Origin: an uncultured Nitrosomonadales bacterium
GTDB taxonomy: Bacteria > Pseudomonadota > Gammaproteobacteria > Burkholderiales > Gallionellaceae
Length of the DNA stretch: 51,468 nt
Assembly (NCBI GenBank): GCA_903885165.1
Contig: CAISHO010000005.1
Location: forward strand, 1 to 51,468
Direction of reading: 5' to 3'
Below the pieces are notes generated by a model that saw only the letters and a program-made list of their open reading frames with translations, searched no databases and was not told the origin of the DNA. Positions 8,189 to 43,798 of the stretch are shown in pieces (within the stretch, counting starts at the first letter, position 1; the number at the start of each line of letters is the position of its first letter). A program made the position numbers and the translations under genes.

Positions 8189-9340
8189 GTGACGCAAACG
8201 AATCCTGCCATTCTTGTACTAGCCGATGGGACGGTGTTTCGCGGAGTTTCCATCGGAGCCGCCGGTAGTCGTGTAGGTGAGGTGGTTTTTAATACCTCGA
8301 TGTCCGGCTATCAGGAAATTCTCACTGACCCGTCTTACTGCCGTCAAATCGTCACGCTAACCTGCCCGCATATCGGCAACGTGGGGGTAAACGACGAAGA
8401 TGTTGAATCCCGTCAGGTATTTGCCAGCGGTCTGGTGATACGCGATCTATCTTTGACGGTGAGCAACTGGCGCAGCACACAGTCTCTGCCCGACTATCTG
8501 AAGGATAACGATGTGGTGGCAATCGCCGGCATCGATACCCGCAAACTCACGCGCATCCTGCGGGAAAAGGGCGCGCAAAGCGGTTGTATCGCGTCCGGCG
8601 CTGATGAAGTCGCGGCGCTCGCCGCTGCTCGCGGCTTTGCGGGTCTGGCCGGTATGGATCTGGCACAAGTTGCGACCTGCGATGAATCCTACGAATGGAA
8701 CGAAGGCGTCTGGGATCTGGGTTCGGTACACGGGCAGGATAAAACCACCAAAACAGCGCTTCCGAAAACCTATCATGTTGTCGCTTATGACTTCGGTGTA
8801 AAACGCAATATCCTGCGCATGCTGGCTGAGCGCGGTTGCAAGATCACTGTCGTGCCGGCTAAAACCTCTGCGGCTGATGTGTTGGCGATGAATCCTGACG
8901 GCGTGTTTCTGTCGAACGGCCCCGGCGATCCGGAGCCTTGTGACTACGCGATTGCGGCGACCCAAGCTGTGTTGGAGACAGGTATTCCTCTGTTTGGCAT
9001 CTGTCTCGGTCATCAGATTCTGGGTCTGTCCATCGGTGCTAAGACCGTCAAGATGAAGTTCGGTCATCGCGGCGCCAATCATCCGGTTCAGGATCTGGAC
9101 ACCAAACGCGTGATGATCACCAGCCAAAATCACGGTTTTGCCGTCGATGCGGCAACCTTGCCTGCGAATGCGCGTGCAACGCACGTCTCCTTGTTTGACG
9201 GTACGCTGCAAGGCTTTGAATTAACTGATAAACCTGCGTTCTGTTTCCAGGGTCACCCTGAAGCGAGTCCCGGCCCGCACGATGTGGACGGCTTGTTCGA
9301 CAAATTTGTTGCAATGATGAAAGGAGCAAGTAGCAAGTAG
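8189..9340 (+). CDS. carA: Carbamoyl-phosphate synthase small subunit
   Basis: This 383-residue glutamine amidotransferase subunit supplies ammonia to CarB for carbamoyl phosphate, the precursor of arginine and pyrimidines. The N-terminal CPSase domain begins [14 protein letters not shown]; the C-terminal class I amidotransferase domain has the nucleophile motif GICLGHQ and the [11 protein letters not shown] block. The start is GTG at 8189, with GGGAG six bases upstream; the longer frame is not family sequence. The last codons (Gly-Ala-Ser-Ser-Lys-stop) are encoded by the heptamer tract that fills the carA/carB spacer. Confidence 0.97.
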
Positions 9341-9419
9341 CAAGTAGCAAGTAGCCAACATCGCACCGTAAGGTGCGCAACGCAGCTACAAGCTACAAGC
9401 CACAAGCTACAAGCTGACA
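9325..9419. repeat. Heptamer tract A between carA and carB
   Basis: The left arm is four exact copies of AGCAAGT (9325-9352). The centre is a perfect hairpin, CGCACC-GTAA-GGTGCG (9362-9377). The right arm is four copies of AGCTACA, the third being AGCCACA (9384-9411). The arms pair imperfectly (five of seven bases per unit). The carA stop codon lies inside the left arm, and the right arm runs to within a few bases of the carB ATG. Confidence 0.9.
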
Positions 9420-9423
9420 CCCT

Positions 9424-12400
9424 ATGCCAAAACGTACTGATCTAAAATCCATACTCATCATCGGCGCAGGCCCTATCGTTATCGGTCAGGCTTGCGAGTT
9501 CGACTATTCCGGCGCTCAGGCTTGTAAGGCGTTGCGCGAAGAGGGTTACCGCGTTGTGCTGGTGAACTCGAATCCGGCCACCATCATGACCGATCCGGAC
9601 ATGGCGGATGCGACCTATATCGAGCCGATCACCTGGCAGATCGTCGAAAAGATCATCGCAAAAGAGCGCCCCGACGCGATTTTGCCGACCATGGGCGGCC
9701 AGACTGCGTTGAATTGCGCGCTGGACTTGGCGCATCACGGTGTGCTGGAAAAATACAACGTCGAGATGATAGGCGCGTCCCGTGAAGCCATCGATATGGC
9801 GGAAGATCGTGAAAAATTTAAACAGGCGATGACCCGTATCGGTCTGGCGTCGGCTCGTTCCTTCATTGCGCACAGCATGGAAGAAGCGTTGCAAGTTCAG
9901 CAAGTACTGGGTTTTCCGACCGTGATCCGTCCGTCCTTCACCATGGGTGGTTCCGGTGGCGGTATCGCTTACAATCGTGAAGAATTTGTCGAGATCTGCG
10001 AGCGCGGTCTGGAAGCCTCGCCGACCAGCGAATTGCTGATCGAAGAGTCCTTGCTCGGTTGGAAAGAATACGAAATGGAAGTGGTGCGTGATCGCAATGA
10101 CAATTGCATCATCATCTGTTCGATCGAAAATCTGGACCCGATGGGTGTGCATACCGGTGATTCGATCACCGTAGCGCCTGCGTTGACCCTGACCGATAAG
10201 GAATATCAGATTTTGCGCGATGCCTCGCTGGCCGTGTTGCGCGAAATTGGCGTGGAAACCGGCGGTTCCAACGTGCAGTTCTCCATTAATCCGGACGACG
10301 GACGCATGGTGGTGATCGAGATGAATCCGCGCGTGTCGCGTTCTTCCGCATTGGCGTCCAAGGCGACTGGTTTCCCGATCGCCAAGGTGGCAGCGAAACT
10401 GGCCGTGGGTTACACGTTGGATGAGTTGCAAAACGATATCACGGGCGGCGCGACACCGGCATCGTTTGAACCGACCATCGACTATGTCGTTACCAAGATT
10501 CCTCGTTTTGCCTTTGAAAAATTCCCGCAAGCCAATGATCGCCTGACCACGCAGATGAAGTCGGTCGGTGAGGTGATGGCGATCGGTCGCACTTTCCAGG
10601 AATCTTTCCAGAAGGCCTTGCGCGGCCTTGAAGTCGGCGTTAATGGTTTGGATACCAAATTCAGTAATCTGGATGCGGTGACGGCTGAATTGCGCAATCC
10701 CGGCCCTGATCGCATCTGGGCGGTGTCCGATGCCTTTCGTTTGGGGTTGACTGTTGAAGATGTGTTTAATATCAGCAAGATAGACCGCTGGTTTTTGGTG
10801 CAGATTGCTGATTTGATCCGTCAGGAGCAATCTTTGCTCGGACGACCTCTGGAGAGTGTGGCAGCCGATGAGATGCGCGCTTTGAAGCGCAGCGGTTTTG
10901 CCGATGCCCGTTTGGCTGATTTGCTGGAAACCGATCCTGCTGCGATCCGCGCCTATCGTCATGCAATGGGTGTGCGTCCGGTGTATAAACGCGTAGACAC
11001 CTGCGCAGCAGAATTTTCCACCGATACCGCCTACATGTATTCCACTTATGAAGAGGAATGCGAAGCGGCGCCGACAAACAACAAAAAAATCATGGTGTTA
11101 GGTGGCGGACCTAATCGTATCGGTCAGGGTATCGAGTTCGACTATTGCTGCGTGCATGCTGCGCTGGCGATGCGCGAAGACGGCTACGAGACCATTATGG
11201 TCAACTGCAATCCTGAAACGGTTTCCACCGACTACGATACATCTGATCGTCTGTATTTCGAGCCGCTGACGTTAGAAGATGTGCTGGAAGTCGTGGCCAT
11301 CGAGAAGCCGATCGGCGTAATCGTGCAATACGGCGGTCAGACTCCATTGAAGTTAGCGCAAGGTTTGGCCAAGAATGGCGTGCCGATCATCGGTACTACG
11401 CCTGATATGATCGACTGCGCGGAAGATCGCGAACGTTTCCAGAAGATGCTGATGGGCTTAGGCTTGAAGCAGCCGCCTAACCGGATTGCCAGCAGTGTGG
11501 CCGAAGGGCTTGCCGGTGCGGCTGAGATCGGCTATCCGCTGGTGATGAGACCGTCCAATGTGCTGGGCGGCCGCGGTATGGAAATCATCCATACTCAGCC
11601 CGATCTGGAACGCTATATGCGTGAAGCCAATGAAATGGCGCGCGTCTACCCTGAGCGCATGCCTATTCTGCTTGATCGTTTCCTGAACGATGCGATTGAA
11701 GTAGATGTGGACGCGGTATCGGATGGCGTTGAAGTGATTATCGGCGGCATCATGGAGCACATTGAGGAAGCTGGTGTGCATTCGGGAGATTCAGCCTGTT
11801 CGCTGCCACCTTTCAGTCTGTCCAAAGAGCTGCAAGACGAATTGCGTCGTCAGACCGTGGCAATGGCGCGTGCGCTGAACGTGGTTGGTCTGATGAATGT
11901 GCAGTTTGCGATTCAGGGTGAAATCGTCTACGTGCTGGAAGTCAATCCGCGCGCTTCGCGCACCGTACCTTTCGTCTCCAAGGCGACCGGTGTGCCGCTG
12001 GCTAAGATTGCTGCGCGTTGTATGGCGGGGCAAAGTCTGGCGCAACAAGGCGTGACCTGTGAGGTGATCCCACCTTATTATTCGGTTAAGGAAGCGGTAT
12101 TCCCGTTCATCAAGTTCCCCGGCGTTGATGTTATCTTAGGACCTGAGATGAAATCGACTGGTGAAGTGATGGGTGTGGGCGATACCTTTGCCGAGGCTTT
12201 CGTTAAATCACAACTGGCTGCCAGTGTGAAGTTGCCGAAAGACGGCAATGTATTCATCAGTGTGCGCGATGCGGACAAGGCAGGGGCGGTAGAAATTGCC
12301 CGTTCTCTGGTTGATATCGGCTTTACCATGCTGGCGACACGCGGCACGGCGGCGGCGATCGAGGCGGCTGGTGTTGCGGTCAAGCTGGTGAATAAAGTCG

Positions 12401-42643: not shown

Positions 42644-43744
42644 ATCTCTATGGATCATTTCTGTATCGCCACCATAGCCCAGCAAGCTAGTGATGTCCTG
42701 GCTGGCATGTCCTGCAATAGTACGCGCCTCAATCGAATTGTAGTTAATCAACCCGCGTGCGATGTCTTGACCCTGATCGTTGATGCAGGCCACCACAGAA
42801 CCGCGCTGAAATTCACCGAATACCTGTTTAACGCCGATAGGAAGCAAACTCTTTCCCTCGGAGCGCAATGCCCGGAGCGCTCCCTCATCCAGTACGATTT
42901 TACCTGCGACTTGTAGATGGTCTGCCAGCCACTGTTTGCGTGCGGCGAGACTGAGTGCCGGTGCAATCAGCAAGGTACCGATGGAGATGCCTTGGAAGAG
43001 GTGCAGGAGGACATCGGGTTCATGGCCTGAGGCGATGACGGTGTGTGCGCCGCTACGGGCGGCTCGCTTCGCGGCCAGTATCTTGGTAAGCATACCGCCG
43101 CGACCGATGCTGCTGCCAGCGCCGCCAGCCATGCCCTCCAATTGTGCGTCGCCTGCCAGTCCTTCACTGACTAAGGTGGCGGTCGGATCTTTGCGAGGGT
43201 CTGCGGTGAATAAACCGTCCTGATCGGTGAGAATCACCAGCGCATCAGCATCGATCAGATTGGTTACCAGTGCTCCTAAGGTATCGTTGTCGCCGAATTT
43301 AATCTCGTCGGTGACGACGGTATCGTTTTCATTGATGATGGGGATGACGCCTAAAGAGAGCAGGGTGGTCAGCGTGGCGCGCGCATTCAGGTAGCGTTCC
43401 CGGTCGGCCAGATCGGCGTGGGTGAGTAGTACTTGAGCTGCGTGCAAATCGTGCTTGCGGAAACAAGTTTCATAGGCTTGTACCAGCCCCATTTGACCGA
43501 CTGCCGCGGCGGCCTGCAATTCGTGGATGGAACTCGGACGCATCGTCCAGCCTAAGCGCTGCATGCCCTCGGCGATCGCGCCGGAGGAGACCAGCACCAC
43601 CTCGTAACCGTTTTTGCTGAGCGTAGAGATCTGCCTGGCCCAGTTGCCCAGCGCATTCAAATCCAGTCCAGCTCCCTGATTGGTGACCAGAGAGCTGCCT
43701 ACTTTGACGACGATGCGACGGCTGGTAGTCAATACGGTTTTCAT
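42626..43744 (-). CDS. proB: Glutamate 5-kinase
   Basis: This 372-residue enzyme phosphorylates glutamate in the first step of proline synthesis. It has [17 protein letters not shown] at the N-terminus, [31 protein letters not shown] and [13 protein letters not shown] in the amino acid kinase domain, and a C-terminal PUA domain (about residues 275-360). The start was chosen at [10 protein letters not shown]. It follows obgE across a heptamer tract, in the conserved rplU-rpmA-obgE-proB order. Confidence 0.97.
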
Positions 43745-43763
43745 CGTTGAATCCAATATAAAA

Positions 43764-43798
43764 GCTAGTAGCTAGTAGCTTGTAGCTGGTTGTTACAG
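43764..43798. repeat. Heptamer tract E between obgE and proB
   Basis: Units GCTAGTA, GCTAGTA, GCTTGTA, GCTGGTT and GTTACAG follow one another on the plus strand. The obgE stop codon (43793-43795 on the minus strand) lies in the last unit. The units are close relatives of those in tracts A and B. No inverted arm is clear. Confidence 0.75.

Follow-up and report, generated by a model that had tools for sequence, protein, structure and literature searches.

Repeats iterated every seven nucleotides (nt) are known from several bacterial groups, and the short tandemly repeated repetitive (STRR) sequences of cyanobacteria form a class in which several heptamer sequences occur in one genome. That bacterial genomes are unusually rich in 7-nt repeats was pointed out by Mrazek in 2007, with polymerase slippage proposed as the source (via MacGregor 2015, PMC4679880, and Rehm et al. 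2015, PMC4692102; these and the other accounts cited here are drawn on through excerpts). The GGGAATC (GGGANTN) heptamers of Xanthomonas mostly count four units, form convergent plus/minus pairs (70 in Xcc, 75 in Xac), lie in intergenic regions near the upstream gene with few cases between divergent genes, and are mostly found between the same genes in two species, with varying length and sequence (PMC4692102). The same account mentions cyanobacterial STRR heptamers, including GGGGA(C/T)T in Nostoc, where only few paired inverted repeats are reported, and three sequences in Calothrix. The TAACTGA repeats of Beggiatoaceae are nearly all direct, with one inverted case, and mostly lie just upstream of start codons (MacGregor 2015, PMC4679880). 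Finally, the repetitive extragenic palindromes (REP) and bacterial interspersed mosaic elements (BIME), which go with REP-associated tyrosine transposases (RAYT), are short spacer palindromes located mostly downstream of genes, with several families per genome (Nunvar 2010, PMC2817692; Di Nocera 2013, PMC3733652). Among the matches listed for repeats of Gallionellaceae nothing dealt with the present subject, which is no proof of absence, and the excerpts of PMC4060949 make no mention of heptamers. Here, we analysed the heptamer tracts of a 51,468-nt stretch of an uncultured Nitrosomonadales bacterium of the Gallionellaceae (contig CAISHO010000005.1, contig 5 of the 2.44-Mb assembly GCA_903885165.1), hereafter called the window. 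These tracts appear to belong to a group of short palindromic inserts between operon genes of mostly uncultured Gallionella-type bacteria; the sequence versions of these inserts differ at one spot in close relatives, and their seven-base pitch is constant.

The original prediction of six tracts built from 7-base units (9325-9419, 12646-12706, 13221-13298, 16281-16358, 24568-24588 and 43764-43798) holds overall, since all six were read directly at about these positions and each has period-7 rows in Tandem Repeats Finder, although their description was only partly confirmed. Period 7 is strong at 9325, 12646, 16281 and 43764. At 13221 the lag-7 signal is restricted to the 3' arm (score 10) and the family is revealed by the orthologous spacers, and 24568 gives a weak signal, with three units, a score of 11.5 and no facing arm by reading. 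The idea that each locus has its own unit proved wrong: the tracts at 9325, 12646 and 43764 share a GTAGC core in different rotations and strands, those at 16281 and 24568 are of the GAGGA/RGGAT type, and only that at 13221 has an AGTRG core. Facing arms, announced for three tracts, are present in four (9325, 12646 with a short 3' arm, 13221 and 16281), and the two perfect inner hairpins are present (CGCACC/GGTGCG at 9362-9377 and GGCAC/GTGCC at 13263-13275). These four tracts fold below their shuffled versions (z of -6.6, -4.1, -4.9 and -2.7, respectively), which is not the case at 43764 (z -0.1).

According to Pfam matches to the carbamoyl-phosphate synthase small and large chains (carA, carB), GreA, YhbY, FtsH and a pterin-binding enzyme (folP), the first four tracts occupy, in order, the carA-carB, carB-greA, greA-yhbY and ftsH-folP spacers; the short gene names are our own assignment on top of these matches, and two further genes are presumably rlmE and glmM. 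The carA-carB element is composed of a plus-strand 5' arm of five 7-nt units with a GTAGC core (9321-9355), which gives carA its stop codon, the plus-strand inner hairpin CGCACC-GTAA-GGTGCG (9362-9377) and a minus-strand 3' arm with the core GCTAC (9384-9415). At 9321-9340 the insert also supplies the last residues of carA, and in many relatives with an empty site the carA stop abuts the carB start. The carB-greA element (12639-12706, plus strand) combines a GTAGC-type 5' arm of about six units with a short facing arm. Between the convergent genes greA and yhbY, the element at 13221-13298 (plus strand) has an AGTRG core and encloses the inner hairpin GGCAC-GCA-GTGCC at 13263-13275; a similar loop is present in spacers of other genomes. 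The ftsH-folP element has a plus-strand 5' arm with a GAGGA core (16279-16308) and a minus-strand 3' arm (16319-16356, TCCTC) ending at the assumed folP start codon. The two remaining tracts are single arms: three weak RGGAT-type units (24568-24588, plus strand) located 2 nt past the stop of a pseudouridine synthase gene, and a GTAGC arm (43763-43790, plus strand) in a spacer flanked by two minus-strand genes, one for GTP1/OBG and one for AA_kinase with PUA; these last three neighbours are again named by Pfam.

At a score of at least 12, the window contains 6 lag-7 self-match segments, against one for period 10 and none for periods 4-6, 8, 9, 11-13 and 15; lag 14 gives 5 segments, four of which are the period-7 arrays again, and 20 first-order Markov simulations of the window produced no lag-7 segment. 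With a score of 10 the counts are 8 for period 7, 5 for period 12, 6 for period 14 and one each for periods 10 and 15, and third-order simulations yielded 0.05 period-7 segments per window (60 runs). At the stricter threshold, period 7 is thus the clear short-period excess of the window. Beyond the window, stretches and pattern searches took the place of a genome-wide autocorrelation of the same genome: 12 period-7 segments (score 12) were found in 20 stretches of 288,425 nt, 11 of these 20 contigs having been picked because of GTAGC matches. The excess extends to Gallionella-type loci (20 segments in 17 loci, 262,761 nt), and 27 other loci (494,293 nt) contain none. Judged by FolP, the named assemblies closest to the genome of the window are of the Gallionella type or Nitrosomonadales (67-74% identity). 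In the family, 17 of 60 genomes have three GTAGC cores at pitch 7 and 21 have three GAGGA cores, with a very uneven spread: overlapping GTAGC pattern matches number 51 in G035, 70 in G014 and 7 in the genome of the window, and those of GAGGA 72 in the latter and 60 in G025 (G and L numbers are our designations for genomes and loci). Reversed patterns matched in 2 of the 60 genomes for GTAGC and in 5 for GAGGA, the latter control not being independent as it is contained within GAGGAGT arrays. Four GAGGA cores are found in 11 of 369 genomes of the class and the reversed control (AGGAG, equal pitch) in 12, so the GAGGA core is not special outside the family; four GTAGC cores are found in 5 of 120 genomes of the order and their control in 2. 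Heptamer arrays also stand at contig ends (G000 C1:1-34 and C24:6-45), where they may break the assembly and lead to an undercount.

The carA-folP region was taken from 40 relatives (some cut by contig ends) and compared with 17 further relative loci and the window, at least four genomes occurring twice among the 57 relative loci. Equivalent spacers are empty, or contain a terminator, another sequence or a 7-pitch palindrome of about 60-115 nt. Of 181 spacers of at least 45 nt, 57 are seven-periodic, as is 1 of 3,620 shuffled spacers, and no other period from 4 to 12 is found in more than 2 of the 181; this count leaves out spacers above 400 nt, identical spacers and those without a located start or stop. 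The comparison with relatives and shuffles therefore bears out the prediction that the period stays constant while the sequence changes, both across relatives and at one orthologous site. Its stronger form, in which only the period and no sequence is shared, is not supported: the inserts fall into a small number of families, each with a core of its own (GTAGC, GAGGA/RGGAT, AAGGG, AGTRG, GYTAG or GTGAA) and each labelled in at least two genomes. No seven-periodic spacer was found among the yhbY-rlmE (divergent, 0/7) and rlmE-ftsH (0/51) spacers of at least 45 nt. The carA-carB spacer is empty (TAAATG or TGATATG) in many relatives and otherwise mostly holds a palindrome, whereas ftsH-folP contains a palindrome, an ordinary terminator or another sequence.

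Family labels were given by a simple classifier after dropping four duplicate genomes, and the greA-yhbY label of the window, for which the classifier had given "other", was set by hand to AGTGG. In 44 different genomes, carA-carB is empty in 16 and belongs to AAGGG in 7, GTAGC in 6 (two being 20-nt remnants), GYTAG in 4 and GTGAA in 1, with 5 other and 5 unknown. For ftsH-folP the same genomes divide into GAGGA (13), AAGGG (4), GTGAA (3), GYTAG (2), GTAGC (2), an AGTGG type (1), empty (4), other (13) and unknown (2), and up to six families were assigned to a single site. Where both members of a site pair are labelled, 40 differ and 26 agree between genomes 92-95% alike, and 2 differ and 5 agree between genomes at least 95% alike, these pairs not being independent of one another. 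On a four-protein tree (rows without greA or ftsH dropped), family changes fall on short branches. By eye, palindromes of other pitches were also noticed at the same sites (L048, L139, L054), namely CACAGAG+2 (period 9), CACGGAT+3 (period 10) and CGCAGAT+2-3, and iterated cores may thus extend to pitches other than 7. The greA-yhbY spacers of L059, L131 and L140 hold other REP-like palindromes, ending in ..CCCCTAC or ..CACCCTAC.

The clearest swap, and the only one examined window by window, concerns L058 and L139, which are 97.5% alike in the compared proteins and carry AAGGG and GAGGA inserts, respectively, between equivalent stop and start codons. The difference runs from just past the stop to the start codon, and the 90-nt windows on either side are 83/90 and 87/90 identical. 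Such swaps, as distinct from the elements themselves, could result from operon pieces imported with their own spacers by interspecies homologous recombination, which would be compatible with the other readings; families do recur in related genomes and recombination inside operons is ordinary. However, identity beside the swap does not differ from that in more distant windows (77 to 88 of 90, and 75/84), and we hold this import to be rather improbable. The findings also suggest that operon spacers can be reshaped by exchange of inserts, the flanking genes remaining unchanged.

The anatomy of the elements is best seen in G035, where 19 whole GTAGC elements of near-fixed design occur at dispersed sites. 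Their arms contain 4 or 5 cores (17/19 5' arms and 18/19 3' arms), mostly four, the counts of five being inflated by fuzzy outer matches, and their ends are mostly AGC/GCT half units. Loops measure 11-13 nt in 13 of the 19, 28-33 nt in four and 7-8 nt in two; by eye, three of the four long loops have a GC-rich inner hairpin and the short ones look alike. Cores deviate from GTAGC at 17 of 755 positions in all arms, or at 20 of 540 nt in 27 arms that were counted only if the opposite arm contained the search motif, a restriction that reduces the search bias. The 2-nt linkers are variable, avoid A (8/228 positions) and are hardly more identical between elements (0.406) than composition predicts (0.375). 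In the GTAGC family the two most variable phases are adjacent in 37 of 62 arms (p 2e-5); a general rule of five fixed plus two free positions was nevertheless rejected, being significant only for GTAGC. Along the greA-yhbY alignment of ten genomes, AGTRG-type cores are kept and linkers changed, and eight of the genomes have a common loop; selection on cores would produce this pattern.

These features bear on the origin put forward at first, slippage combined with templated inversion, in which 7-nt polymerase slippage would make direct arrays in place and template switching at the fork would add the facing arm. The slippage part is visible: long uniform one-sided arrays exist (L206:1242-1321, G025, G546, G528), and identical neighbouring linkers are in excess in G035 (18/90 versus 8.4 expected), so slippage plays some part. 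The inversion part is not supported. Templated inversion predicts complementary facing linkers, and pairing at chance level therefore counts against it: complementary pairs number 9/57 in G035 (8.3 expected) and, in pooled spacers, 0/34 for GTAGC (4.5), 7/39 for GAGGA (6.8), 2/37 for AAGGG (10.9), 0/13 for AGTGG (1.1) and 1/10 for GTGAA (2.3). As related genomes are not independent, we conclude only that pairing is not in excess and make no claim on the values below chance. One element, in L056, has arms with largely matching linkers by eye. Slippage would further give near-identical units in variable number, to which the long one-sided arrays conform but the paired elements of G035 do not, their unit number being nearly fixed. 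Most carA-carB spacers are either below 10 nt or 68-115 nt long, stop and start codons included, with exceptions (18 nt in L140, 20 nt in L129 and L137, 55 nt in L156 and 230 nt in L144). An origin in place as simple sequence thus seems unlikely to us, and a dispersed REP-like class of elements with its own anatomy fits better.

Gene orientation around the elements was taken from codon-scored genes, which replaced a cruder pass on longest open reading frames (ORFs). On this basis, all 17 G035 elements flanked by two called genes have co-directional neighbours, and for 11 of these elements the called ends of both genes are no more than 15 nt away; exceptions include L203 (90 nt), L193 and L190, and we think that the starts at the last two were called wrongly. 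At the G035 loci on which the two gene callers disagree, 10 of 10 neighbour proteins tested were recognised by Pfam on the assigned strand, one of them at the cut-off (phosphoketolase, acetate kinase, GrpE, HscB, a 2Fe-2S/4Fe-4S protein, uroporphyrinogen decarboxylase, GARS and others). Stretches of the genome under study, together with the window, gave 15 co-directional, 3 convergent and no divergent cases, with 4 inside a called ORF and 2 at edges. All 7 elements of G083 are co-directional, G050 has no element in 140 kb, and G044 has one in 120 kb, inside a called ORF. When G035, the genome of the window and G083 are pooled, none of 42 elements lies between divergent genes, against 30 of 178 background spacers (Fisher p 0.002), this background coming from the last two genomes only.

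Many elements reach from near a stop to near a start codon, a position also suited to intercistronic RNA hairpins for mRNA processing, stability, termination or coupling; on that account any hairpin would serve and families would interchange freely. Forty-three of the 57 seven-periodic spacers fold at z below -3. A plain terminator-like hairpin with a T run was seen by eye in place of the element in the ftsH-folP spacer of six relatives (L047/L141, L053, L150, L151, L152, L159). Pairing alone, however, would not preserve the sequence of the GTAGC core, and facing pairs in sense-strand cores are G.T no more often than A.C (5 versus 10 in G035, 13 versus 11 elsewhere), so that the cores give no sign of selection for RNA pairing. 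Over the whole best register G.T does lead A.C (163 to 134, p 0.10), and the search for RNA-level selection by this comparison ended with no core signal and this slight lean. Six terminator-like sites were detected at 9200-16500, none in an element under a rule limited to loops of up to 8 nt; TTTT follows an element only at 13221, by reading, and under this rule the elements do not have the form of intrinsic terminators. Rfam 15 gave no match at gathering score between positions 7000 and 46000. Taken together, an RNA role as the explanation of the elements appears doubtful.

We also considered REP elements moved by a RAYT (IS200/IS605-like) transposase, the GTAG of GTAGC and AGTRG representing the REP head. 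The elements are palindromic, dwell in spacers and form several families, both cores contain the GT(A/G)G head quoted in the excerpts of Nunvar 2010 (PMC2817692), and 9 of the 13 genomes tested have Y1_Tnp genes, including the GTAGC-rich G035, G014 and G037. Nevertheless, none of the 3 Y1_Tnp loci of the genome under study and none of the 30 in relatives adjoins a 7-periodic array within roughly 1.7-3.4 kb, the GTAGC-rich G022 and G027 (92% and 85% complete) have no Y1_Tnp match, and the GAGGA, AAGGG and GTGAA cores lack the head. The RAYT link is thus not supported, and we judge this reading very unlikely. A RAYT-like Y1 transposase gene scoring below the Pfam cut-off (G000 C82, L163:900-1671) has by eye REP-like repeats (GTAGGGCGGAA..TTCCGCC) on both sides, unlike the heptamer elements. 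The likelihoods given to these alternatives are not mutually exclusive.

The reading we favour, with about an even chance of being right, is that of dispersed palindromic elements of operon spacers whose cores are read as DNA at a 7-bp pitch. The tracts would be members of this class, some intact and others reduced by decay to a single arm, with a usual length of about 60-115 nt. In the common plan, a small loop, sometimes itself a hairpin, is enclosed by two facing arms, each with a few short cores (about four in the best-studied set) spaced at exactly 7 nt, and several sequence families are built on this plan. The data show the pitch, the pairing of the arms, the location in spacers, the lack of elements at equivalent sites of some relatives, the complete change of family at one site between close relatives, and GTAGC cores conserved next to variable linkers. 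A predicted protein, either an oligomer or a transposase acting in trans, would read the cores of both arms as double-stranded DNA with one core contact per 7 bp, which may resemble Omega-type heptad operators, where a ribbon-helix-helix protein takes one 7-bp heptad per dimer. Such reading could move elements into stop/start junctions, where insertion is least harmful, and keep the cores while the linkers drift, slippage afterwards lengthening some arms. Recognition of cores at the DNA level is favoured because cores are conserved, linkers drift and the strands are symmetric. Slippage predicts matched whole units, recent copying shared linkers, and DNA recognition conserved cores with drifting linkers; GTAGC in G035 shows the third pattern.

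Several points weigh against this reading, in addition to the whole-register G.T lean. Neither a mobilising enzyme nor a binding protein was found, and direct copying is not seen in G035, where linkers are near chance identity and the best linker pair (L188/L203, 6/6 in the 3' arm) is about what 171 pairs allow by our own arithmetic. The core plus two-linker pattern is not significant in the other families pooled (34/81, p 0.065). The AGTRG loop occurs once in the genome under study (3 mismatches allowed), and six genomes together have three copies of the GYTAG loop, each of them beside greA, so that for these two families inheritance at the site is better supported than dispersal. The simple classifier often gave the label "other", in 42 of the 168 site calls that could be scored. 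Strong folds are not special to seven-periodic spacers, since 47 of 123 other spacers of at least 45 nt also have z below -3. Finally, the cruder gene caller distributed the same 19 G035 elements as 7 co-directional, 6 divergent, 5 convergent and 1 at an edge, although at least two of its calls were in error, those for L195 and L196, the ftsH-folP and carA-carB spacers.

Compared with known systems, the elements differ from REP/BIME (excerpts of Nunvar 2010 and Di Nocera 2013), with which they share short spacer palindromes in several families, in their 7-nt iteration, which is not found described there, and RAYT genes are flanked by REP repeats but not by these elements. The REP head as described in these excerpts is an unpaired GTAG beside a stem-loop, whereas the GTAGC cores are themselves base-paired and occur repeatedly. 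The TAACTGA repeats of Beggiatoaceae resemble them as intergenic heptamers with a patchy spread among phyla, but consist of one nearly always direct sequence, the elements described here being multi-family with paired arms. STRR heptamers likewise have period 7 and an intergenic location; they differ by the few paired inverted repeats reported in Nostoc, and site-by-site alternation of families was not found in the excerpted account. The closest likeness is with the Xanthomonas heptamers, which also have 7-nt units with variable positions, about four per arm, and two convergent arms per spacer. This layout is found in the 19 G035 elements and in the window tracts at 9325 and 16281, and, since Xanthomonas heptamers as excerpted have the same architecture, the present elements are not a new kind. 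Their cores (GTAGC, GAGGA, AAGGG, AGTRG, GYTAG and GTGAA) nonetheless do not match GGGA(N)T(N). Xanthomonas has one core family with proposed G-quadruplexes, whereas here several families, some without G-runs, alternate at one site and, unlike in Xanthomonas, many elements fill the spacer from near stop to near start; several unrelated core families with a common pitch alternating at one site were not found in the excerpts of Rehm et al. 2015. Linkers, paired arms and family alternation at one site provide testable handles on the 7-nt repeat excess noted in 2007. More broadly, and as a tentative proposal with a small chance of being correct, there may be a class of mobile palindromes characterised by a 7-bp pitch rather than by sequence. 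Related oligomeric proteins would read its several core families, which would enter operon stop/start junctions and replace each other there as cassettes, and the Xanthomonas and cyanobacterial heptamers would belong to this class as well.

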